DNA from: Rhodocyclaceae bacterium
GTDB taxonomy: Bacteria; Pseudomonadota; Gammaproteobacteria; Burkholderiales; Rhodocyclaceae
Assembly (NCBI GenBank): GCA_003963315.1
Contig: RXJP01000033.1
Coordinates: forward strand, 679 to 48,788
Direction: 5' to 3'
DNA length: 48,110 nt
Positions 1 through 20,565 of this stretch are shown here, one piece after another; position 1 is the stretch's first letter, and every line of letters starts with the position of its first letter. Under the pieces are notes generated by a model. It saw only the letters and a list, made by a program, of their open reading frames with translations, did no database searches and was not told where the DNA came from. The translations under genes were made by a program, and so were the position numbers.

Positions 1-772
<772 letters not shown>

Positions 773-850
773 CTAGTTGAAAAATAATTGAATTTATCTA
801 AGTCCCTAGTGTCCGGGGCGAACCTTTCTTGCGACAAAACCCCGAGTCCT

Positions 851-866
851 TGTAGGGCCTCCGACA
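851..866. promoter_or_regulatory. NifA upstream activator sequence (nifH side)
   Basis: Perfect TGT-AGGGCCTCCG-ACA (TGT-N10-ACA), 98 bp upstream of the nifH -24 element. It also abuts the AAGGGG ribosome-binding site of the divergent draT, so NifA bound here could affect draT too. Confidence 0.75.
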
Positions 867-877
867 AGGGGCCGACC

Positions 878-1678
878 TTGCCCGCCGCCGCCCGGCTGCC
901 CATCAATCGGTGCAATCTGCCGGCGGTGATCCTGGGCGGATTGACCTACCAACAGCATCCCGTGCCGCTGGTGCTCGACGGCGTGGAAACCCTCCATCGG
1001 GCCTTGTTCCAGCACCTTGATGCCGTGGCGGATATTGCCGCCCGGGGGCAACTGTTCCGCGATTACATGGCGGCCCACTTCTGCCTGGATCAATTAGAGG
1101 AGGCGGGCTACGAGCCTGCCAGCGGCTCCCGCGGCAAGGCCAATTGGCTGCGCCTGCTACGGGGCTGGAGTTTTGATGCCGATGGTTTGGAAGGCGCTGC
1201 GTTGAAGGCCTGGGTGGAATCCCGCTTCGGCCTGCCGCCGCGCTTCCACGGCCAGCCGCTGCGTGATTACGGCGGCGCTGCCTGGCGTCGCTATGAGGAA
1301 ATGCGTTCCCGCGCCCTCTACGGCACCAATGCCCTCGAGGCCCAGTTGGATGTTCTTTACGCCTGGTGCCAGTACGAATTTCATCGCGCCGGTTCGGCGC
1401 GTGGATGCCTCGATCTTTATCGGGGCGTGAACCGCCTGGACGACCACGAGGTACTGTCCCCGCCGGGTGACGCATCCCCGGTGGTGCTGTTCAATAATCT
1501 CACCTCTTTTAGCACGTCAAAGGAACGGGCAGGCGAGTTTGGCGACGCGATTCTGGAAGTCCGGGTGCCTGCTGCCAAAGTGCTGTTCCACCATGGCCTG
1601 CTGCCTTCCCTGCTGAAAGGCGAGGACGAGTATTTGGTAATCGGCGGCGTGTATCGGGTGCGCCGCTGGGATTTCTAG
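878..1678 (+). CDS. draT: NAD+-dinitrogen-reductase ADP-D-ribosyltransferase DraT
   Basis: DraT transfers ADP-ribose from NAD+ to the Arg of NifH and so switches nitrogenase off when ammonium or darkness/energy signals arrive. The protein has the family hallmarks: LPINRCNLPAVILGG near the N-terminus, ESRFGLPPRFHG, TNALEAQLDVLY, LYRGVNRLDDHEV, and a C-terminal SKERAGEFGDAILEVRVP followed by GEDEYLVIGGV. The start is uncertain. The reading frame is open from a TTG at 788 and a GTG at 809, but TTG at 878 is preceded by AAGGGG at six bases. It gives 266 residues, close to the family's roughly 275, so it is preferred. The gene is divergent from nifH. Its partner draG lies about 12 kb away at the end of the nifB run rather than beside it, which is less usual. 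Confidence 0.9.
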   Translation: MPAAARLPINRCNLPAVILGGLTYQQHPVPLVLDGVETLHRALFQHLDAVADIAARGQLFRDYMAAHFCLDQLEEAGYEPASGSRGKANWLRLLRGWSFDADGLEGAALKAWVESRFGLPPRFHGQPLRDYGGAAWRRYEEMRSRALYGTNALEAQLDVLYAWCQYEFHRAGSARGCLDLYRGVNRLDDHEVLSPPGDASPVVLFNNLTSFSTSKERAGEFGDAILEVRVPAAKVLFHHGLLPSLLKGEDEYLVIGGVYRVRRWDF

Positions 1679-3753: not shown

Positions 3754-3769
3754 TGTCGCGAAGACCACA
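3754..3769. promoter_or_regulatory. NifA upstream activator sequence (SIR2-like gene)
   Basis: Perfect TGT-CGCGAAGACC-ACA, 73 bp upstream of the -24/-12 element at 3843. A near-match to the IHF consensus, AATCAT-GATG-TTG (3815-3827, one mismatch), lies between them. Confidence 0.75.
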
Positions 3770-3842
3770 ATGCCCCGGAGAAGGGCAACGGTTGCCTTTT
3801 TTGAAATTCATTTAAATCATGATGTTGCGTGGATATTTATAT

Positions 3843-3858
3843 CGGCCTGCTTCTTGCA
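3843..3858 (+). promoter_or_regulatory. Sigma-54 -24/-12 promoter of SIR2-like gene
   Basis: TCGGCCTGCTTCTTGCA has GG at 3844-3845 and GC at 3856-3857, ten bases apart, with a consensus TTGCA -12 element. The -24 T is replaced by C. The predicted transcript start is just upstream of the GGAG ribosome-binding site at 3881. Confidence 0.72.
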
Positions 3859-3893
3859 ATGGTATGGCTGACCCCTCCACGGAGACGCACATA

Positions 3894-4751
3894 ATGATTA
3901 CTCCCGAACTGCGCAGCCTATGGATAGCCGGCCTCAAGGAGGGCAGCATCGTGCCCTATCTGGGCGCCGGCGTATTGTCCGATGTCAAATCCAAGCTTGA
4001 TGGCCGTTCCATCCCCGCCACCAGCGACCAACTTATCCTGGCCATGAACAACGGCCAGCCCATGGCCCCCAAGCTGATGTACGAATTCCCCCGGGCCGCC
4101 ATGAACGTGGAGCTGAAGAAGGGGCGTAGCGCCGTGACCCGCTTTCTCGACACCACCTACGGCCAGACCCAATGGACCCGCAGCGCTTTCCATGAGTGGC
4201 TGAAGGCGGTGCGGCCGCCCTATGTGGTGGACATCAATCGCGATGTGCAACTTCAGGATAGCTACAGCGACCAGCCCCACACCCTGATCGTGGGCTGCGC
4301 GCGTATCGGCGGCACCGCCTTCCGCTTCAAGCTGTTCGCCTGGGACGGCCAGAGTTATTCCGCCATCCAGCCCGAGCAGGCGGCCCTCAATCTGCCGGTG
4401 CTGTTCAAGCCCATGGGCACCCCCCGGCCCCAGCCCACCTACATCGCATCGGATGCGGATTATGTGGACTACATCACCGAACTCATGGGCGGCTTCGCCA
4501 TTCCCGGCCCCCTGAAGAAATACCGCCAGGACAAGCAATACTTGCTGGTGGGCATGCGCTTGAACCGGGATTCGGAACGTATGGTGATGTCGGACATCAT
4601 CTACGGCGCAAAGGCTGAACAACCCGGTTGGATATTGCTTCCCGAGCCTAACGACAAGGAGCGCCGTTTCTGTAAGAAGCTGGGGCTGGAAATCGTCGAG
4701 GCGGATATTCCTGATTTGATCGGCGCTACTGCCGAGGCCGCCGCAGCCTAG
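3894..4751 (+). CDS. SIR2-fold protein, predicted NifA/sigma-54 regulated
   Basis: A 285-residue soluble protein with features of the SIR2-like (SIR2_2-type) nucleotide-binding fold: GSIVPYLGAGVLSDV near the N-terminus (GAG glycine motif), VVDINRDVQLQ in place of the TxNxDxxLE motif, DADYVDYITELMGG, and QYLLVGMRLNRDSERMV near the C-terminus, like the FLGYSLxD strand. I see no HG catalytic histidine where the sirtuin motif would fall (LFKPMGTPRP), so classical deacetylase activity is doubtful. NAD+ or ADP-ribose binding, or NADase-like chemistry, remains possible. Start 3894 has GGAG nine bases upstream; a longer frame from 3819 lacks such a site and would overlap the promoter. A perfect NifA box and a -24/-12 promoter place it in the nif regulon next to nifH-draT. 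The function is not known to me; a link to DraT/DraG ADP-ribosylation is inference. Confidence 0.8.
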   Translation: MITPELRSLWIAGLKEGSIVPYLGAGVLSDVKSKLDGRSIPATSDQLILAMNNGQPMAPKLMYEFPRAAMNVELKKGRSAVTRFLDTTYGQTQWTRSAFHEWLKAVRPPYVVDINRDVQLQDSYSDQPHTLIVGCARIGGTAFRFKLFAWDGQSYSAIQPEQAALNLPVLFKPMGTPRPQPTYIASDADYVDYITELMGGFAIPGPLKKYRQDKQYLLVGMRLNRDSERMVMSDIIYGAKAEQPGWILLPEPNDKERRFCKKLGLEIVEADIPDLIGATAEAAAA

Positions 4752-4793: not shown

Positions 4794-5837
4794 TCAGCCC
4801 GGACGGTGATTGACAGCGGCTTGTGCGGGCATGACGGGGTTCAGCACCGTGCGGAAGCCGAGATGGGAAGTGCCCAGGCCGGGATCCTGGGCCTGCCGGG
4901 CGGAAGGCCGGTATCGCCGGCAGTAAGTAGGGGCGCACAGGTGCGACCCGCCCTTGATGACCCTGACCTGTACCCCGGGTTGGCGCGGATCCAGACTCTC
5001 CGCAGGCGTGGGGCCGATGGGATCGTTCTGCCGTGCAGAACTGTGGTGGGGGGTGTACCAGGTCTTTGTCCATTGCCAGACATTGCCCGCCATATCGAAC
5101 AAGCCGAAGCCGTTAGCGGGAAAGCTGGCCACGGGGGATGTGCCGGAATAGCCGTCCCCGGCGGTGTTTTGGAACGGAAAATCCCCTTGCCAGGTATTTG
5201 CCATGACCTTGCCCTTGGGTGTCAGTGCATCCCCCCAGGCATAGGCCTTGCCCTGCAGGCCGCCCCGTGCCGCATGTTCCCACTGGGCTTCGGTGGGGAG
5301 CTGTTCCCCTTTCCAGTCTGCATAGGCGCTGGCATCCTCATAGGTGATGTGCACGACGGGATGTTCCTCCCGGCCTTGGAGGTTGCTGCCGGGGCCTTCG
5401 GGCTGGCGCCAGTTGGCGCCGGCCACGAAACGCCAGGCGCCGGCGCTGCCGTCCCGGGGCTGGATGAACACCACTGATCCCGCTCCGTCCCTTTCGGCGA
5501 CTGTGTGGTAACCCGTGGCGGCGACGAACTCGCCGAATTGCCTGTTGGTCACATCACAACGGCTCATCCAGAAGCCGTGTACGGATACTTCATGAACCGG
5601 TGCTTCCTCTGGATAAGCACTGTTGCTTCCCATGGCGAAGCGGCCGCCGGGGATCCAGACCATACCCGGCGGCGGGGCGTCCTTGCTTGCGCCCTCCGCA
5701 GCGGTGACGCCGCAACGCTGGTTTGCCGTTGGGGACGGCTGGCCCGCGTCGGCCCGGGCTGCGCCGCACACCATTACCATGGCGGCGGCCCAGGCCAAGG
5801 GGGCCAGCCCCAGTCTTCGGGACGGGGGCCGCGCCAT
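4794..5837 (-). CDS. Formylglycine-generating enzyme family protein, sulfatase activator, predicted exported
   Basis: FGE oxidises the active-site Cys of type I sulfatases to formylglycine. The 347-residue protein has a twin-Arg-free hydrophobic leader ending near CGAARADA (about residue 31), then the FGE fold: GMVWIPGGRFAMGS, EVSVHGFWMSRCDVTN, EEHPVVHITYEDASAYADW, LPTEAQWEHAARGG and FDMAGNVWQWT. Both cysteines of the catalytic pair in true FGEs are present (Cys301 and Cys306 in GGSHLCAPTYCRRYR), separating it from non-catalytic relatives. Its ATG overlaps the upstream sulfatase stop by one base (TAATG), so the two are translationally coupled. The odd feature is the signal peptide, since characterised bacterial FGEs are mostly cytosolic. 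Confidence 0.92.
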   Translation of the reverse strand: MARPPSRRLGLAPLAWAAAMVMVCGAARADAGQPSPTANQRCGVTAAEGASKDAPPPGMVWIPGGRFAMGSNSAYPEEAPVHEVSVHGFWMSRCDVTNRQFGEFVAATGYHTVAERDGAGSVVFIQPRDGSAGAWRFVAGANWRQPEGPGSNLQGREEHPVVHITYEDASAYADWKGEQLPTEAQWEHAARGGLQGKAYAWGDALTPKGKVMANTWQGDFPFQNTAGDGYSGTSPVASFPANGFGLFDMAGNVWQWTKTWYTPHHSSARQNDPIGPTPAESLDPRQPGVQVRVIKGGSHLCAPTYCRRYRPSARQAQDPGLGTSHLGFRTVLNPVMPAQAAVNHRPG

Positions 5838-7609
5838 TACTTTTCCGCCTCGGCGTTCACCGGGTCGTAGAAATTGGTGCGTTGGGGAGCGGCTTCGTTG
5901 GCCACGTCATCGTAATAGCTGACGGAGTTGCTGTAACCGGGGCGGTCCGCGATCCCGGGGGCGTCCACCACACCATTGGTCTTCATATAGTCCTGGTAGG
6001 CAGCGAGCAGTTCTTCCACCTTTTTCGGATATTTGTCGGCAAGGTTATGCTGTTCCGTGCGGTCCTTGGCCAGATCGAACAATTCCCAGCGTCCGGCACC
6101 CCAGGGCCAGTTGGCGTACACCAGTTTCCAGTCACCCTTGCGGATGGCCTTGCGGCCGCCCAGCTCCCAGCCGGTGACATGGTCCTTGCCATGGACCGCT
6201 GGTGCTTGGCCGGTGAGGAAGGACAGCATGGACTTGCCCTGCATGGGAATCACTTCCCGTCCTTCATAGGTTCGACCCACGGGTTCCAATCCGGCGAGCT
6301 CAAGCAGGGTCGGCGCGACATCGGTGACATGGGAGAACTGGGGTTTGATGGTGCCCTTGCCCTGGAGCTTGGGATACACGGCAATGGCCGGCGACGAGAT
6401 ACCGCCTTCGTATTGGAACGCCTTGTACATACGGAAGGGCGCCGCGCCGACCTGGGCCCAGTTGGGTCCGTATTCGGCGAAGGACGTCGCCTTGCCGATG
6501 TTCTCCACGCTGTTGTCCCGATGCATGCGGGACCAGGAGCGATCCTGCCCCTCGTCGAGGATGGTGTTGCCCTCGGCGCCGTTATCCGACATGAAGAAGA
6601 TGAAGGTATTGTCGTATTCCCCGGTTTTCTTCAAGTGGTCGATGATGCGGCCGAGGTGGTAGTCCATGGCGTCCACCATGGCGGCGTACACGGCCATGCG
6701 TTTGGCCTCCTGTTTTTTCTGCTCGGCGGAAAGCTGCGACCACTTGGGCCAGACAGGATTTCCCTGATCTGCCTGGGTGTCCTTGGGAATGATCCCCATC
6801 TCTTTCATTTTTGCAATGCGCTGCTTGCGGATAACCTCGTAGCCGACTTTGTAAGTGTCTTCGTATTTTTTGATGAAAGACTCGGGCGCCTGCAAGGGCC
6901 AATGGGGCGCGGTGAAGGCGACATAGGCCAGGAAGGGCTTGCCATCCCCCTTGTTGCTGTCGATGTACTGGATCATCCTGTCGGCGTAGAACTCGCTCGA
7001 ATAGAACTTCTCCGGCAGGTTCACCTGTTTGCCGTTTTCCCGGTACAGGGCCACCGGCGCCTTGTTGGCGTCGAAGGTGATGATGCCGGTCTGGTCCCAG
7101 TGGGCTGCACCGCCCTGGACCAATGCGTAGGATTGTTCGAAGCCGCGTTTGGCGGGGCTGACCTCCTCGCTCAATCCGACATGCCATTTCCCCACCATGT
7201 AGGTGTGGTAGCCGGACTGTCGCAGGACTTCGGGGAAGGGGGCGACGCGGTTGTTCAGATAGCCTTCATAGCCGGGCTTGCCCTTCTGGAAGGAATTGAT
7301 CAACTCGCCCATGGTGCCCATGCCTGCTAAGTGGTTGTCCATGCCCGATAGCAGCATCGCCCGTGTCGGCGAGCAGAAGGGCGAGGCATAGAAGCCGCTC
7401 AGGCGCACCCCCGATTTGGCGAGCCCATCGAGGGTGGGGGTCTTGATCTCGCCGCCGAAGGCGCCGATGTCCGAATAACCCAAGTCGTCGGCCACCACCA
7501 GCAGGATATTGGGTCGGCGTGGTGTGTCGGGGGCGGCAGCATGGGTGACCAAGCTCAGGGCGGATAACATCGCGACCCCGAGCGCGGGCCGGAATTTGTG
7601 GAAGCTCAT
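5837..7609 (-). CDS. Secreted/periplasmic type I arylsulfatase
   Basis: Predicted to hydrolyse sulfate esters. The 590-residue protein starts with a signal peptide (hydrophobic core about residues 8-22, cleavage near THAAA). It has the alkaline-phosphatase-fold sulfatase motifs: RRPNILLVVADDLGYSD (metal-binding Asp pair 41-42), FCSPTRAML (Cys79 in C-x-P-x-R, the residue converted to formylglycine), GKWHVG, FTAPHWPLQAP and SDNGAEGN. Start 7609 is supported by AAGGAGAG eight bases upstream; a longer frame to 7726 lacks this. It overlaps the activating enzyme gene by one base. A 21-bp palindrome lies about 150 bp upstream and is repeated upstream of the BASS transporter, suggesting control by the neighbouring IclR protein. 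The substrate is not determinable from sequence; a steroid or aryl sulfate is an inference from the neighbours. Confidence 0.95.
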   Translation of the reverse strand: MSFHKFRPALGVAMLSALSLVTHAAAPDTPRRPNILLVVADDLGYSDIGAFGGEIKTPTLDGLAKSGVRLSGFYASPFCSPTRAMLLSGMDNHLAGMGTMGELINSFQKGKPGYEGYLNNRVAPFPEVLRQSGYHTYMVGKWHVGLSEEVSPAKRGFEQSYALVQGGAAHWDQTGIITFDANKAPVALYRENGKQVNLPEKFYSSEFYADRMIQYIDSNKGDGKPFLAYVAFTAPHWPLQAPESFIKKYEDTYKVGYEVIRKQRIAKMKEMGIIPKDTQADQGNPVWPKWSQLSAEQKKQEAKRMAVYAAMVDAMDYHLGRIIDHLKKTGEYDNTFIFFMSDNGAEGNTILDEGQDRSWSRMHRDNSVENIGKATSFAEYGPNWAQVGAAPFRMYKAFQYEGGISSPAIAVYPKLQGKGTIKPQFSHVTDVAPTLLELAGLEPVGRTYEGREVIPMQGKSMLSFLTGQAPAVHGKDHVTGWELGGRKAIRKGDWKLVYANWPWGAGRWELFDLAKDRTEQHNLADKYPKKVEELLAAYQDYMKTNGVVDAPGIADRPGYSNSVSYYDDVANEAAPQRTNFYDPVNAEAEK

Positions 7610-7757
7610 CTGTCTCTCTCCTTGTGGGTTATGCGTTTTGGCGCGGGTCCAACCGGTCCTCGCCTGGGTGCGGGGTAAGAACCCGTATCGCTGGCGGGCA
7701 GGGTGGCCGTAAGGAAAGTTTTTCACGAAGCCAGGGAAGGATCGGGCCGGCGCGGAA

Positions 7758-13862: not shown

Positions 13863-14810
13863 TCAGGCCGCCGCCCGTTGACCGGGGGGCGTGGCCTGGG
13901 ACAAGGTGCGCAACAGTCCGCAGGCCACCAGTTGCCTGGCCTGGTTGACGCAGCGTTGGCGCACTTCCGGCAGCAATGCCTGCACCCAGGCCTCGGGCAG
14001 GGCGGTGGGGCCGTAGAGGGCGCCGGCCAGCATGCCGGCGATGGCGCCGGTGGTGTCGGCATCGCCGCCGCAATTGACCACTTGCGTCAGACAATCCTTG
14101 AAACTGCCGGTGTCCATCAGGGCTTGCAGCACGCATTGCAAGGTGTCCACCACATAGCCGCTGGGGTTCTCCTGGCGGCGTTTGCGGTAGGCGAACTGGG
14201 GGAAGGCCGCCAGCAATGGCTTTATGCGGCCGCGGTAGAGCTGGCGTAGATCGGCCCCCAGCACGGCATCCCGCACGGCGAGGGCAATGAATTCGCAGGC
14301 CGCATCCGACACGGGGTTGTGGTGGGTGACATGGGCCTGGGTACGGCAGGCGGCGCGCAGGGCGGCCTCGTCTTCGCCCAGATAGGCCAAGGCGACGGGC
14401 AGCACCCGCATGGCGGCACCATTGCCGGCGTCATGTTCGGAGGGGGGCGCCTCGGCCATGCCGCTACGGCGGAATTGGATCAGGTTGCGGCGTACGGTGT
14501 TGCCGATGTCCACGGGTTTGCCGCGCATCCAAGTATCGAAGGCGATGGCGCAGGCAAGCGCTTCCACCCGGCCCTCGGCCTGGCGGATGGCATCCCCCAG
14601 GGCCCAGGACATGGTGGTGTCGTCGGTGACCTGCCCGGCTTTCAGCTTGAGCCAGCCGCCGCCGACGATATGGCGATGCACACCGTATTGGCGGGCGATC
14701 TCCGCCGGCGTCATGAACTCCACCGTGGCGCCCAGGGCGTCGCCGATGGCGAGGCCCAGATAGGCGGCTTCGGCGCGGGCTAGGAGCTGGACGTTCATGG
14801 CGATAGGCAT
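13863..14810 (-). CDS. draG: ADP-ribosyl-[dinitrogen reductase] hydrolase DraG
   Basis: DraG removes ADP-ribose from NifH-Arg and reactivates nitrogenase, opposing DraT. The 315-residue all-alpha ARH-family protein shows the dinuclear metal site residues: GDALGATVEFMTP, VTDDTTMSWALGDA (Thr62-Asp-Asp-Thr65), HDAGNGAAMR, and GGDADTTGAIAGMLAG (residues 248-259). The start may be 14810 or MNVQLL at 14798; neither has a good ribosome-binding site, but the gene starts only 30 bases after the FeSII-like stop, so coupling is plausible. It lies in the nifB run and is separated from draT by about 12 kb that includes the sulfatase module. Confidence 0.95.
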   Translation of the reverse strand: MPIAMNVQLLARAEAAYLGLAIGDALGATVEFMTPAEIARQYGVHRHIVGGGWLKLKAGQVTDDTTMSWALGDAIRQAEGRVEALACAIAFDTWMRGKPVDIGNTVRRNLIQFRRSGMAEAPPSEHDAGNGAAMRVLPVALAYLGEDEAALRAACRTQAHVTHHNPVSDAACEFIALAVRDAVLGADLRQLYRGRIKPLLAAFPQFAYRKRRQENPSGYVVDTLQCVLQALMDTGSFKDCLTQVVNCGGDADTTGAIAGMLAGALYGPTALPEAWVQALLPEVRQRCVNQARQLVACGLLRTLSQATPPGQRAAA

Positions 14811-15677: not shown

Positions 15678-16940
15678 TCATCCCAGCGCCGCCATGTCGA
15701 TGACCCGGGCGTCGGCCTTGCCCACCAGGTGCAGGGCGCTTTGGCGGCCCAGTTCCCGGCATTGCGCCAGTTCTTCAGGGGTGGGGATGAGGCGGGCGCG
15801 CACGCCGGCCACGGGCACGCGCAGCTTGAGGCGGCGCAGGCGGTCTTCCACCATGGGCACCGCTTCTCCGCTCCAGCCGTAGGAACCGAAGGCCGCGCCG
15901 AGCTTGCCCTTGACGTTCACCAGGGTGAGGGAAGAAAGCATGTCCCACACGGGCTTCACGGCATCGCCGTTGATGGTGGGGCTGCCGAACACCAGGCCGT
16001 CGGCTTCCTCGATCAGGTCCACGAAAGGTGCGGTCTCGGAGCCTTCGATGTCGTAGAGGGAAACCCGCACGCCATCCACCTGCTCGGCCCCGGCGGCGAC
16101 GAATTCCGCCATGCGCCGGGTGGAGCCGTAGGAGGAGATGTAGAACACCAGCAGGGTCTTGGATTCCGCGCCGTGCAGGTTGCTGGCCGAGAGCGTGCGA
16201 TAGCGCTGCACGTAGTCCAGGGGCGATTCCCGCAGGATGGGGCCGTGGGCCGGTGCCACCAGGCTGATGGGCAGCGGTTGGATCAGATCCAGGGCGTGGC
16301 GTACATGGTCGCGGAAGGGCCGCATGATGTGGCTGTAGTAGTAGTCGAAGGAAAAACGGAAGTCGCCCACGGCATCATTGAACAGCCGTGCATCGCAGAA
16401 ATGGCAGCCGAGAAAATCGCCGGAAAACAGCACGCCGTCCTGTTCCAGGAAGGTGCATTGCGTGTCGGGCCAATGCAGGTAAGGCGTGTTGAAGAAGCGC
16501 AGGCTGCGGTCGCCGAGGCTGATGCGGTCGCCGGTGTTCACCGGGATGATGCGGTGTTCCACCGGGCCGGTGTCGAACAAGCCCTTCATCATGTTGCGGG
16601 CCTGGGGCGAGACATAGAGCTTGGCCTTGGGCGCCCGCTCCATCAGTTCGGGCAGGGCACCGGAGTGGTCCGGCTCCAGATGGTTGAGGACGATGGTGGT
16701 GATTTCTTCGTAGCGCGCCACGGATTCCAGGCGGCGGAAGAAGGTGCCGGCGTACATCTCCTTGACGGTGTCGATCACCGCCACGCCTTGGGAGCCGCGC
16801 ACCGCATAGGCGTTGTAGCTGGTGCCGTTGGCGGTGCGCAGGATGATGTCGAAGCTGCGCAAATCCGGGTCGAGCGCGCCCACCCAGTGCACGCCGGGGA
16901 GTACGGTGACTGCGTTGTGGCTGGCGCCCGCGTGGGGCAT
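15678..16940 (-). CDS. fprA: Flavodiiron protein (FprA, A-type flavoprotein)
   Basis: A 420-residue soluble protein with an N-terminal metallo-beta-lactamase-like diiron domain and a C-terminal flavodoxin domain. Diiron ligands are visible in NHLEPDHSG (H-x-E-x-D-H), TPYLHWPDT and SGDFLGCH, then APAHGP. The FMN domain has FYISSYGSTRRMAE, VFGSPTINGD and AAFGSYGWSGEAV. Flavodiiron proteins reduce O2 to water and/or NO to N2O. No rubredoxin domain is fused, so an external donor is needed; the adjacent ferredoxin is a candidate. An fprA gene in the nif region is known from Rhodobacter capsulatus. Here it sits between nifO and ferredoxin genes, suggesting oxygen or NO protection or redox support of nitrogenase. 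Confidence 0.93.
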   Translation of the reverse strand: MPHAGASHNAVTVLPGVHWVGALDPDLRSFDIILRTANGTSYNAYAVRGSQGVAVIDTVKEMYAGTFFRRLESVARYEEITTIVLNHLEPDHSGALPELMERAPKAKLYVSPQARNMMKGLFDTGPVEHRIIPVNTGDRISLGDRSLRFFNTPYLHWPDTQCTFLEQDGVLFSGDFLGCHFCDARLFNDAVGDFRFSFDYYYSHIMRPFRDHVRHALDLIQPLPISLVAPAHGPILRESPLDYVQRYRTLSASNLHGAESKTLLVFYISSYGSTRRMAEFVAAGAEQVDGVRVSLYDIEGSETAPFVDLIEEADGLVFGSPTINGDAVKPVWDMLSSLTLVNVKGKLGAAFGSYGWSGEAVPMVEDRLRRLKLRVPVAGVRARLIPTPEELAQCRELGRQSALHLVGKADARVIDMAALG

Positions 16941-16972: not shown

Positions 16973-17446
16973 TCAGTGGGGACTGGCAGCGCGGGGATCG
17001 TGGCAGCGGGCACTCTGGCCCTCGCCATGGTCGTGATCGTGCTCATGGGCGTGATGGGCACAGGCTTCCAGGTTGCGCGTGGGCAAGGGTTGGTTGCCGA
17101 GGCCGATCCAGGCATCCACTGCCTGGGTATCGAAACCCACCATGCGCTGCCCATTGCTTTCCATCAGCGGGCGGCGGATCAGCAGTGGGTTTTCCTGCAA
17201 GAGGCCGAGGGCCGTGGCTTCGTCCAATTCTTCCGGCACGATGCTGCCGTCCTTGATGGACTGGGCGGCGCGGTTGAACCATTGCGCCACGGGCAGGCCG
17301 GCGAGGAAGGTCAGCAAGCGATCCCGCGACCAGCAAACGTCCCGCAGGTCGCGGGCATGGACTTCATGTCCGGCGGTTTCCAGCAGGGCTTTCTGTTTTC
17401 GGTTACCTGAACAGCCGGACTTTTCGTAGAACTGGATGACAGCCAT
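16973..17446 (-). CDS. nifO: Nitrogenase-associated ArsC/Spx-family protein (NifO-like) with His-rich tail
   Basis: A 157-residue thioredoxin-fold protein of the ArsC/Spx family: FYEKSGCSGNRKQKALLETAGHEV at the N-terminus and RDLRDVCWSRDRLLTFL after it, then IRRPLMESNGQRMVGFD. The CxxC is reduced to a single Cys followed by SGNRKQ. NifO-type proteins occur in nif clusters and have been linked to molybdenum allocation between nitrogenase and nitrate reductase. The C-terminal 35 residues are unusual: HHAHEHDHDHGEGQ, followed by RCHDP, a likely metal-binding extension. The gene starts nine bases after fdxN ends and is 32 bases from fprA, clearly in the operon. Confidence 0.85.
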   Translation of the reverse strand: MAVIQFYEKSGCSGNRKQKALLETAGHEVHARDLRDVCWSRDRLLTFLAGLPVAQWFNRAAQSIKDGSIVPEELDEATALGLLQENPLLIRRPLMESNGQRMVGFDTQAVDAWIGLGNQPLPTRNLEACAHHAHEHDHDHGEGQSARCHDPRAASPH

Positions 17447-17854: not shown

Positions 17855-19333
17855 TTACGCGCGCTTCTTCGCTTCCACCGGCGCATCCAACTTACCGGCG
17901 GCCAGCATCTCGTTCCATACCGCCATCACCGCTTCCTCGATGGGCTCCATGGCATGTTCGCCATTGGGCTGGATGCCGGCGGCTTCCAGATTTCCCCAGG
18001 GCTCGTAGCCGATCTTGGAACAGAGCACCACTTCGCAGCCTTCCAGCGACTTGATGGTTTTGTCGAGGATGGAGTCGCCATCGCCGCAGGTTTCATCGCC
18101 GGCGCAGTAGGAGTCGGTCTTGCGATGGCCGACGAAACGGGCGCCTTGGTAGGTGGCTTCGTATACCATGAACTCCTTGGCGTGGCCGAAGTGCACATTG
18201 ATCACCGCCCCCTTGGCCGCGACGGCCATCAGCACCGGGCGGCCGCGTGGCGAATCTTCCAGGGGCACGACCTTGGCTTTTTCCGCCCGCTTGGCATCCA
18301 ACTCGGCCTGGATGCCGGCACGGACTTCGGCGCGGAATTCCATGGCCTTGTCGTAGTCGATGTCCATCTGCTCGATCTTGTCCAGGGTGAACTCGGCCCC
18401 GCGGTCTTCGCCCAGCAGACCCACGGCATCGGCGCGGCACTGGCGGCAGTGCCGCATCATGTTCATGTCACCCTCGCAGGCGTCCTGGAGCTCCTTGAGT
18501 TCGGCGGGGGAAGGGCTGCGCTGGCCCATCACGCCGTAGAAGGTGCCGTGTTCGGCCTCGGCGATGAGGGGCATGACGTTGTGCAGGAATGCGCCCTTGG
18601 CCTTGACCACCTTGGAGACTTCCTTCAGGTGCTGGTCGTTGACGCCGGGGATCAGCACCGAATTCACCTTCACCAGGATGCCTTTCTCCTTGAGCATCTC
18701 CAGGCCCTTCTGCTGCTGCTCGATGAGGATGGCGGCGCCTTCGCGGCCGTAGATGCGCTTGTTCTCCCAGTAGATCCAGGGATAGATCTGGGCGCCCACG
18801 TCCGGGTCGATGCAGTTGATAGTGATGGTGACGTGGTCGATGTTGTGCTTCGACAGCTCTTCCACCGCGGCGGGCAGGGCGAGGCCGTTGGTGGAGACGC
18901 AGAGTTTGATGTCCGGAGCTTTTTCGGAAAGCTGGCGGAAGGTCTCGAACGTCCGTTCCGGATTGGCCAAGGGGTCCCCCGGTCCGGCAATGCCCAGCAC
19001 CGTCATCTGCGGGATAGTGGCGGCCACCGCCATGGTCTTTTTCACCGCCTGGTCGGGAGTCATGACTTCCGACACCACGCCGGGACGGGATTCGTTGGCG
19101 CAATCGTACTTGCGGTTGCAGTAATGGCACTGGATGTTGCAGGCCGGCGCTACCGCCACATGCATGCGGGCAAAGTAGTGGTGGGCTTCCTCGGAATAAC
19201 AGGGGTGGTCTTCCACCTTCTTGCGGATGTCGTCCGACAAGTGGCCGAGCTGGTCATCGGTGGAGCCGCAGCTCCCGGCGCTGCAACCGCCGCTTTTTGG
19301 CGCGGCTTCTTCCTGATAAATCGGCAGATCCAT
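17855..19333 (-). CDS. nifB: FeMo-cofactor biosynthesis radical SAM protein NifB
   Basis: NifB fuses two [4Fe-4S] clusters with insertion of carbide and sulfide to form NifB-co, the FeMo-co core. The 492-residue protein has an N-terminal region with DHPCYSEEAHHYFARMHVAVAPACN, the radical SAM motif CNIQCHYC, DCANESRPGVVSE, VLGIAGPGDPLANPERTFET, and the later cluster ligands MMRHCRQCRADAVG. A C-terminal NifX/NafY-like domain follows (VINVHFGHAKEFMVYE, about residues 355-480). Start 19333 has AAGGGAGAAAG upstream. It is the first gene of the nifB-fdxN-nifO-fprA-fdx-FeSII-draG-nif11 run and is controlled by a sigma-54 promoter and NifA box. Confidence 0.98.
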   Translation of the reverse strand: MDLPIYQEEAAPKSGGCSAGSCGSTDDQLGHLSDDIRKKVEDHPCYSEEAHHYFARMHVAVAPACNIQCHYCNRKYDCANESRPGVVSEVMTPDQAVKKTMAVAATIPQMTVLGIAGPGDPLANPERTFETFRQLSEKAPDIKLCVSTNGLALPAAVEELSKHNIDHVTITINCIDPDVGAQIYPWIYWENKRIYGREGAAILIEQQQKGLEMLKEKGILVKVNSVLIPGVNDQHLKEVSKVVKAKGAFLHNVMPLIAEAEHGTFYGVMGQRSPSPAELKELQDACEGDMNMMRHCRQCRADAVGLLGEDRGAEFTLDKIEQMDIDYDKAMEFRAEVRAGIQAELDAKRAEKAKVVPLEDSPRGRPVLMAVAAKGAVINVHFGHAKEFMVYEATYQGARFVGHRKTDSYCAGDETCGDGDSILDKTIKSLEGCEVVLCSKIGYEPWGNLEAAGIQPNGEHAMEPIEEAVMAVWNEMLAAGKLDAPVEAKKRA

Positions 19334-19445: not shown

Positions 19446-19461
19446 TGTGGCAATCGCGACA
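19446..19461. promoter_or_regulatory. NifA upstream activator sequence (nifB)
   Basis: Perfect TGT-GGCAATCGCG-ACA, 57 bp upstream of the nifB -24 element. The AT-rich spacer contains a palindrome GTTAAAT-GA-ATTTAAC at 19418-19433. Confidence 0.78.
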
Positions 19462-19872: not shown

Positions 19873-20202
19873 TCAGCCCGCCACGATGCGTCCGCTGCCG
19901 GCTTGGCCTCCCGCCAGCTTCCAGGCCGCCTGCAATTGTTTGGCTTGGGCTTCGTCCTGGGTCAGTTCGTCGGTGAGGCAGCCCACGGGGGGGCCAAGGA
20001 TGCCGTCTTCCCCCTCGAAGCGGACCAGATAGATTTCCTGGCCCGGGTCGGCTTCGGCATAGCCGAACATCACCACCACGCCTACCGCGCCGGGGGGCGC
20101 CAGCAGGGCATCTTCCGGCAGTTCGGGGATGAAGCCGTCGTTGTACATGGGCTCCAGGGGGAACACCATGTCGCCGATGTCGTACTGTTGTCCTGGGCTC
20201 AT
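19873..20202 (-). CDS. nifZ: Nitrogen fixation protein NifZ
   Basis: A 109-residue NifZ-family protein: QYDIGDMVFPLEPMYNDGFIPELPEDALLAPPGAVGVV, VMFGYAEADPGQEIYLVRFE and GILGPPVGCLTDEL. NifZ assists maturation of the second P-cluster of the MoFe protein. The start MSPGQQYD at 20202 lies four bases after the stop of the ferredoxin gene, so the pair is coupled. A longer frame reaching 20445 is the wrong frame of the ferredoxin gene. The C-terminal tail after the conserved domain is short and Gly/Ala-rich. Confidence 0.92.
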   Translation of the reverse strand: MSPGQQYDIGDMVFPLEPMYNDGFIPELPEDALLAPPGAVGVVVMFGYAEADPGQEIYLVRFEGEDGILGPPVGCLTDELTQDEAQAKQLQAAWKLAGGQAGSGRIVAG

Positions 20203-20206
20203 GGCA

Positions 20207-20530
20207 TCACCACAACTGGGGAGAAACCTTGAGCCGTTCCACCGGCTGGTCGGCAAGCAGATGCTGGTCGATGATGGCGGCCACATCCTCCACCTTGACG
20301 CCGCCGTACATGACGCTTTCCGGATAGACCAGCACGCTGGGGCCAAGGGAGCAGGGGCCCAGGCAGCCGGTGCTGGTGAGCAGGTAGTCCTGGAACAGGT
20401 TGCGTTTCTGGAATTCGGCCATGAAGGCGTTGAACACATCCACACAACCCTTCTCCTGGCAGGAGCCGCGGGGGTGGCCGGCGGGACGGGCTTGGGTGCA
20501 GACGAGCAGGTGTTTTTTCGGTCTGGGCAT
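20207..20530 (-). CDS. Thioredoxin-like [2Fe-2S] ferredoxin, nif-associated
   Basis: A 107-residue thioredoxin-fold [2Fe-2S] protein (Shethna FeSI / NuoE-like type): KHLLVCTQARPAGHPRGSC, then TSTGCLGPCSLGPSVLVYPE. Four Cys ligands are in C-x12-C and C-x3-C arrangement. Such ferredoxins are common in proteobacterial nif clusters and likely donate electrons in cofactor assembly or to nitrogenase. The start at 20530 (MPRPKK) is chosen over 20539 because AAAGG sits nine bases before it but directly abuts the other ATG. First gene of the unit with nifZ and the 47-residue gene; a -24/-12 promoter and NifA box precede it. Confidence 0.9.
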   Translation of the reverse strand: MPRPKKHLLVCTQARPAGHPRGSCQEKGCVDVFNAFMAEFQKRNLFQDYLLTSTGCLGPCSLGPSVLVYPESVMYGGVKVEDVAAIIDQHLLADQPVERLKVSPQLW

Positions 20531-20565
20531 GGCGGTCATCCTTTGCTGGGGTTCGGTTGCGACTC

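Follow-up and report, generated by a model that had tools for sequence, protein, structure and literature searches.

A gene in the 48,110-nucleotide stretch of contig RXJP01000033.1 from a Rhodocyclaceae bacterium (hereinafter, the window) codes for the likely ortholog of PnfA, a protein associated with nitrogen fixation; the predicted fold of the protein is that of SIR2, and the catalytic histidine is missing. We give about an even chance to the proposal that this protein, produced under NifA and sigma-54, keeps nitrogenase active during respiration of oxygen or nitrate by binding rather than by catalysis. The family and the mutant phenotype are already known from publications. What is new is the prediction of a SIR2 fold of the NADase (nicotinamide adenine dinucleotide (NAD+) hydrolase) type, with catalytic residues lost in both clades of the family, and the frequent presence of a hemerythrin gene in the neighborhood. 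Among the open-access papers searched, we found neither a description of this family as a SIR2 pseudoenzyme nor a structural tie of pnfA to the SIR2 fold.

The likely start of the pnfA-like gene is the ATG at position 3894, which yields a protein of 285 amino acids and 31.74 kDa; a longer, mechanically called open reading frame (ORF) that begins at 3819 reads through the promoter of the gene. The protein matches the Pfam family SIR2_2 (PF13289) above the curated cut-off, and its structure was modeled with a predicted local distance difference test score of 93.7. The predicted fold is that of the NADase-type SIR2 domains (ThsA, KomC, and DSR2), in agreement with the initial annotation, made from the sequence of the window, which had assigned a SIR2 fold to this protein and proposed a structure prediction. 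No NCBIfam model matched the window protein, and neither did any PADLOC model at E values up to 1; among 39 aligned relatives, 13 weakly match the ThsA model and 2 the LmuA model of PADLOC. We read these weak matches as a sign of shared ancestry and, given the lack of a match for the window protein itself, rejected the possibility that this is a defense gene. The window protein retains the GAG loop (residues 24-26) along with Asn115 and Asp117 of the NxD motif, and the position of the catalytic His is occupied by Met174, so that the apparent lack of the usual catalytic His region, also noticed initially, is real. The entire protein contains two cysteines and hence has no four-Cys zinc module, a feature carried by sirtuin deacylases of the CobB type.

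The family consists of two clades. Clade A, which includes the window protein, shows 55-85% identity to this protein (alignment A2) and is located by nifH in many loci. In a census of 221 clade-A sequences, the catalytic His is absent from all, and the Asn of the NxD motif is present in all. Clade B shares 21-26% identity with the window protein, and the model of a clade-B protein likewise has the SIR2 fold; in all 262 clade-B sequences, Trp replaces the catalytic Asn. His is kept at the catalytic position in 127 of these sequences, 120 of which come from the Bradyrhizobium-type search; specifically, the clade-B proteins of the rhizobial type (L107, L108, L119, L121, L122, L123, L125, and P0241-P0360) keep the catalytic His although the Asn is Trp, and the other clade-B proteins mostly have Leu in the His position. 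Across all 483 sequences of both clades, ten positions are identical. In all 18 sampled genomes, the clade-B gene is on one strand with nifT, at a distance of 32 to 2072 bp; R. etli and S. americanum plasmids have a clade-B gene at the end of the nifB-fdxN-nifZ-nifT run, and clade-B genes occur in other nif gene runs near nifT in records from Bradyrhizobium, Paraburkholderia, and Methylococcus. The 75 plasmid records with clade-B genes come from Rhizobium (55), Sinorhizobium (7), Mesorhizobium (7), Paraburkholderia (2), Bradyrhizobium (2), Methylococcus (1), and Microvirga (1). Because nifT was found in 63 of the 68 genomes with nif genes that we compared, its presence alone is uninformative; the position beside clade B is informative.

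Upstream of the pnfA-like gene, the initial annotation had described a perfect TGT-N10-ACA box for NifA, a near-match to the site of integration host factor (IHF), and a GG-N10-GC promoter at the right spacing, and all three are there (Table 1). The -24/-12 element starts 51 nt before the ATG, and the box ends 75 nt before the GG of this element. Taken one by one, these motifs do not exceed chance expectation: the window contains 8 TGT-N10-ACA boxes versus 6.2 expected, 17 IHF-like sites versus 15.5 expected, and 117 matches to the -24/-12 consensus with three mismatches versus 144 expected. The composite, defined as GG-N9-TGC located 38-62 nt before an ATG with the box 45-130 nt further upstream, precedes only 1 of the 877 plus-strand ATGs in the window, namely, that at 3894. 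On the minus strand, it precedes 3 of 802 ATGs, that is, 19333, the start of nifB, which served as the positive control of the scan, and 20539 and 20530 in the ferredoxin-like ORF ahead of nifZ. Among the near relatives, the composite was found ahead of the pnfA-like gene in 73 of 79 loci, compared with 0.24% of 200,000 positions drawn at random from this DNA; the 79 are the 80 nearest loci less one (L052) with too little upstream DNA, and they are related to one another and do not represent independent cases. In 13 clade-A loci from other members of the class (a set without L001, L010, and the clade-B loci), the strict composite is present in 7 and a looser form in 11. Judging from these motifs, the pnfA-like gene is predicted to be under the control of NifA and sigma-54.

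The phyletic distribution ties the family to nitrogen fixation. In the class sample, 23 of 274 genomes encode a family member, and nifH is present in 22 of these 23; in the remaining genome (G268), which has nifD, the family member lies at the end of a contig. In the phylum sample, the family is represented in 17 of 398 genomes, 14 of which have nifH. Among the remaining three, G308 has a nifD match over the cut-off, and G332 and G513 show sub-threshold nifD-family matches of about 310 bits, such as nifE would presumably give, with a broken piece of nifD also found in G513. Fisher tests of the gene against nifH give 2e-27 for the class and 6e-13 for the phylum, without correction for relatedness. 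In the other direction, 22 of 26 nifH genomes in the class and 14 of 40 in the phylum carry the gene. Thus, presence of the gene is predictive of nif, while many nif genomes lack it, and the co-occurrence of orthologs with nifH, which had been suggested as a check, was found in both samples. These counts exclude two weak phylum matches (G417 and G655; under 22 bits, no nifD match), fragment matches in G308, G461, and G513, and nifH-model matches well below the cut-off in 5 class and 29 phylum genomes; three partial nifH matches (G079, G378, and G550) were kept. The class search was run with a single sequence and could miss distant clade-B genes; for six class genomes without a match, a repeated search with a profile came up empty as well.

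The likely published counterpart of the window gene is PST1325 of Pseudomonas stutzeri A1501, which Yan and co-workers named pnfA in 2010 (PMC2820453). According to that paper, pnfA depends on NifA and RpoN for its expression, is divergent from nifHDK, and is preceded by a TGT-N10-ACA box together with a -24/-12 sequence; the product is a 31.7 kDa protein that, per the authors, is limited to diazotrophs and has a second subfamily with about 20% identity (PMC2820453). At 0.5% oxygen, a non-polar pnfA mutant retained 23% of nitrogenase activity and showed no change in nifH transcription; it behaved like the wild type under argon and lost fixation with nitrate as the acceptor; complementation restored the activity (data not shown in that paper), and the authors proposed a role in electron transfer or oxygen protection (PMC2820453). 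The same authors noted likeness to UspA and ETF-alpha, but no SIR2 fold, and placed D. aromatica RCB in the PnfA subfamily (PMC2820453); in our data, the window protein shares 67% identity with the relative from a Dechloromonas aromatica metagenome-assembled genome. In a later paper on A1501, PST1325 is termed a SIR2 family protein (PMC11332353), and in Escherichia coli with the A1501 nif island, it is listed with a 9-fold rise (PMC6053447). Hence the initial remark that no established function was known is not entirely accurate, pnfA having been named with a mutant phenotype in 2010, although the SIR2 label is absent there.

Other reports concern proteins that, by name and gene order, probably belong to the same family, namely, Rcc03262 of Rhodobacter capsulatus, ZMO1821 of Zymomonas, and Msi351 of Mesorhizobium loti. 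Rcc03262 was not found in a nifA double mutant (PMC6925177), control by NifA is in print for both Rcc03262 and Msi351, and ZMO1821, a proposed deacetylase, rises under N2 fixation (PMC8600466; for the position of the gene, see also PMC8594446). Expression dependent on nif regulation, another check that had been proposed, is therefore published for family members (PMC2820453, PMC6925177, PMC8600466). A SIR2-like gene follows nifZ-nifT in Rhodovulum (PMC9412634), and a SIR2 gene down-regulated in nodules under mercury (PMC11227200) could not be tied to the PnfA family.

In 47 of 97 clade-A loci (41 of the 80 near loci, 6 of 16 loci from other genomes, and 0 of 1 for the window), a gene for a hemerythrin-domain protein (PF01814) lies at most 3 kb downstream of the pnfA-like gene and on the same strand; no hemerythrin gene was detected within 10 kb upstream in any of the 97. 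Neighbors were counted with tblastn, our own ORF calling being noisy (the gene was recovered in only 43 of the 80 near loci). In Dechloromonas denitrificans, the pnfA-like gene, a gene for a 185-amino-acid protein without a Pfam or NCBIfam match (L100:10865-11422, plus strand), and the hemerythrin gene are tightly packed, and the last two share one base. Proteins in similar places occur in 41 of the 80 near loci, and the 185-amino-acid protein, absent from the window, is a possible further member of the unit. A gene for Fe/Mn superoxide dismutase is found downstream in 4 of the 16 loci from other genomes. The hemerythrin and superoxide dismutase neighbors are compatible with an oxygen-related role.

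The window represents one edge of a nif cluster that includes nifB, the ferredoxin-like ORF with nifZ, nifH, draT, and draG (Table 1), and nifD begins on the same contig. Directly downstream of the pnfA-like gene, where relatives carry the hemerythrin gene, there are a formylglycine-generating-enzyme-like gene and a sulfatase gene (4794-7726, minus strand). Between draG and nifB lie genes for a beta-lactamase-fold/flavodoxin (ODP) protein (15678-16940, minus strand) and an ArsC-family protein (16973-17446, minus strand); in P. stutzeri A1501, an arsenate-reductase-related gene also adjoins nifB (PMC2820453). GGDEF/EAL genes related to that in the window are also found near the pnfA-like gene in some other loci.

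Table 1. Features of the window discussed in the text
Feature	Position	Strand	Evidence or remark
NifA upstream activator box, TGT-N10-ACA	3754..3769	+	exact match; 3754 is the first base of the box
IHF-like site, AATCATGATGTTG	3815..3827	+	one mismatch
Sigma-54 type -24/-12 element, CGGCCTGCTTCTTGCA	3843..3858	+	GG-N10-GC with TTGCA
pnfA-like gene, SIR2_2 protein, 285 amino acids	3894..4751	+	PF13289, E 2.4e-7; 4751 is the last base of the stop codon
nifH, 5' part, off the window edge, divergent from the pnfA-like gene	2..670	-	translation; TIGR01287, 448 bits on the contig
draT, DRAT domain, true start uncertain	788..1678	+	PF07357, E 1.2e-95
PAS-GGDEF-EAL gene, start uncertain, outside the pnfA unit	1734..about 3662	-	Pfam
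draG	13863..14810	-	TIGR02662, 376.7 bits, over the cut-off
nifB with its own composite NifA/sigma-54 promoter (box 19446-19461)	17855..19333	-	TIGR01290, 643 bits
Ferredoxin-like ORF just ahead of nifZ	19873..20539	-	thioredoxin-like [2Fe-2S] model, 21.7 bits (cut-off 24.8)

With Met in place of the catalytic His, the protein likely supports nitrogenase by binding rather than through NAD-consuming chemistry. The clade-A pocket (GxG, Asn115, Asp117, and no His) appears to resemble the pockets in known structures, with NAD+ or NAD+ fragments, of SIR2 mutants lacking the His. PnfA may accordingly bind its putative ligand, NAD(H), and leave it uncleaved; depending on occupancy, it may then interact with a putative target such as nitrogenase, an electron donor of nitrogenase, or a partner that handles oxygen. 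A bolder version, under which a SIR2 NADase of the phage defense type lost its catalytic activity and became an NAD(H) sensor, working with hemerythrin to link nitrogenase activity post-translationally to the respiratory redox state, independently of DraT/DraG, appears quite unlikely to us. We would also entertain, if only tentatively and as a somewhat improbable option, that the protein is a scaffold for nitrogenase maturation that serves NifH or NifDK assembly or the steps dependent on NifB, NifZ, and NifT, in which case neither NAD nor anything specific to respiration would be involved. The location of clade B next to nifT in all 18 genomes and at the end of the nifB-fdxN-nifZ-nifT run on the R. 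etli and S. americanum plasmids fits such a function and, the Asn being lost from clade B, whatever function the two clades share could be independent of NAD. However, clade A is found by nifH rather than by nifB or nifT in most of the loci seen, and the wild-type-like behavior of the P. stutzeri mutant under argon (PMC2820453) is unexpected for an assembly defect.

Catalytic activity on nif proteins or NAD+ pools, as an NAD+-dependent deacylase or an NADase, could be suggested by the SIR2_2 domain itself, by the name "SIR2 family NAD-dependent protein deacylase" borne by many clade-B relatives, by the 127 clade-B sequences that keep the His, and by the deacetylase role proposed for the Zymomonas member (PMC8600466). 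The residues speak against such an enzyme: all 221 clade-A sequences lack the His, all 262 clade-B sequences have Trp for Asn, and the two cysteines of the window protein cannot form a four-Cys zinc site. We rejected this candidate as very unlikely, and deacylation of nif proteins, one of the roles envisaged in the initial annotation, is unlikely because the catalytic His is lost. The other roles envisaged there, sensing or setting NAD+ for DraT or binding ADP-ribosylated NifH, drew on the position of the gene beside draT, which was only partly right: draT is on the same side but is not adjacent, a PAS-GGDEF-EAL gene on the opposite strand lying between the two. Both draT and draG are present in the window, 54 of the 80 nearest loci have draT upstream in the same orientation (19 of them at a distance of up to 300 nt), and draG is downstream within 10 kb in 50 of the 97 loci; 48 of the 54 draT loci also have nifH, and 26 of the 80 show neither within the DNA examined. 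Nevertheless, in the comparison of the 68 nif genomes, 13 of the 38 that carry the pnfA-like gene have draT versus 25 of the 30 that lack it; for draG (over the cut-off), the counts are 13 of 38 versus 23 of 30. When each combination of family and pattern is counted once, the draT comparison gives p 0.20, and therefore, we claim only the absence of a positive link, contrary to the co-occurrence with draT/draG that had been proposed as a check. The comparison of the 68 genomes leaves out G104 and G221, two genomes of the class sample of low completeness (82-85%) that have draT, no nifH match, and no pnfA-like gene. Furthermore, the gene has its own promoter in the near relatives, and Yan and co-workers detected neither DraT nor DraG in A1501, the strain in which mutation of pnfA has an effect (PMC2820453). 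A partnership with DraT was accordingly rejected on co-occurrence and, like the active enzyme, has a very low probability. Finally, the loss of a catalytic residue and the lack of a symbiotic phenotype of msi351::lacZ in M. loti (PMC3538637) would be expected of a functionless relic kept by linkage to nif, an extremely improbable explanation considering the ten positions identical in 483 sequences, the conserved promoter, and the reduced nitrogenase activity (23%) of the P. stutzeri mutant, which was complemented (PMC2820453).

Several observations weigh against the binding role that we favor. The orthology with PST1325, although likely, rests on the published description of that gene rather than on a comparison of sequences. 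The M. loti msi351::lacZ mutant, which affects a gene presumably of the clade-B type, was fully effective in symbiosis (PMC3538637). No hemerythrin gene adjoins the window gene, its genome contains only weak hemerythrin matches (at most 31% identity), and 50 of the 97 loci lack hemerythrin within 3 kb. A profile built from the close relatives alone (A1) matched no SIR2 chain in the PDB by sequence. Binding of NAD is doubtful family-wide, the Ser of GAGxS being Leu in 219 of 221 clade-A sequences and the Asn of clade B being invariably Trp. The gene is also dispensable for fixation as such because 4 of 26 nifH genomes in the class and 26 of 40 in the phylum do without it.

The family is present in nif clusters across Pseudomonadota, and its second clade is named NAD-dependent deacylase in many records, a reading that motivated one acetylome study and that the residues argue against. 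As a likely PnfA ortholog, the window gene is worth relabeling. Joining it to PnfA would supply a mutant phenotype and make testable the question of how a SIR2 fold devoid of its chemistry supports nitrogenase during respiration, with the hemerythrin neighbor as a concrete candidate partner. When nif clusters are transferred to new hosts, this accessory gene could be relevant to oxygen tolerance.

Compared with known systems, the window gene is most similar to pnfA of A1501: it has a NifA box and a -24/-12 promoter, is transcribed away from a linked nifH, encodes a protein of nearly the same mass, and belongs to a family found in diazotrophs; it differs in that draT and the GGDEF-EAL gene separate it from nifH. 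The clade-B nif SIR2 proteins, such as that encoded on R. etli p42d (RHE_RS30545) and, judging from gene order, probably Rcc03262 and Msi351, share with the window protein the predicted SIR2 fold and the location in nif clusters but are distantly related in sequence, with Trp for the catalytic Asn, and are encoded beside nifT rather than nifH. ThsA, KomC, and DSR2 have the NADase-type SIR2 fold that is predicted for the window protein and share with it the Asn of the NxD motif; unlike these, the window protein has Met for His, no effector, STALD, or STAND partner domain, and a location in a nif cluster. From the class III sirtuin deacylases (CobB and Sir2), it is set apart by the absence of the catalytic His and by having only two cysteines.
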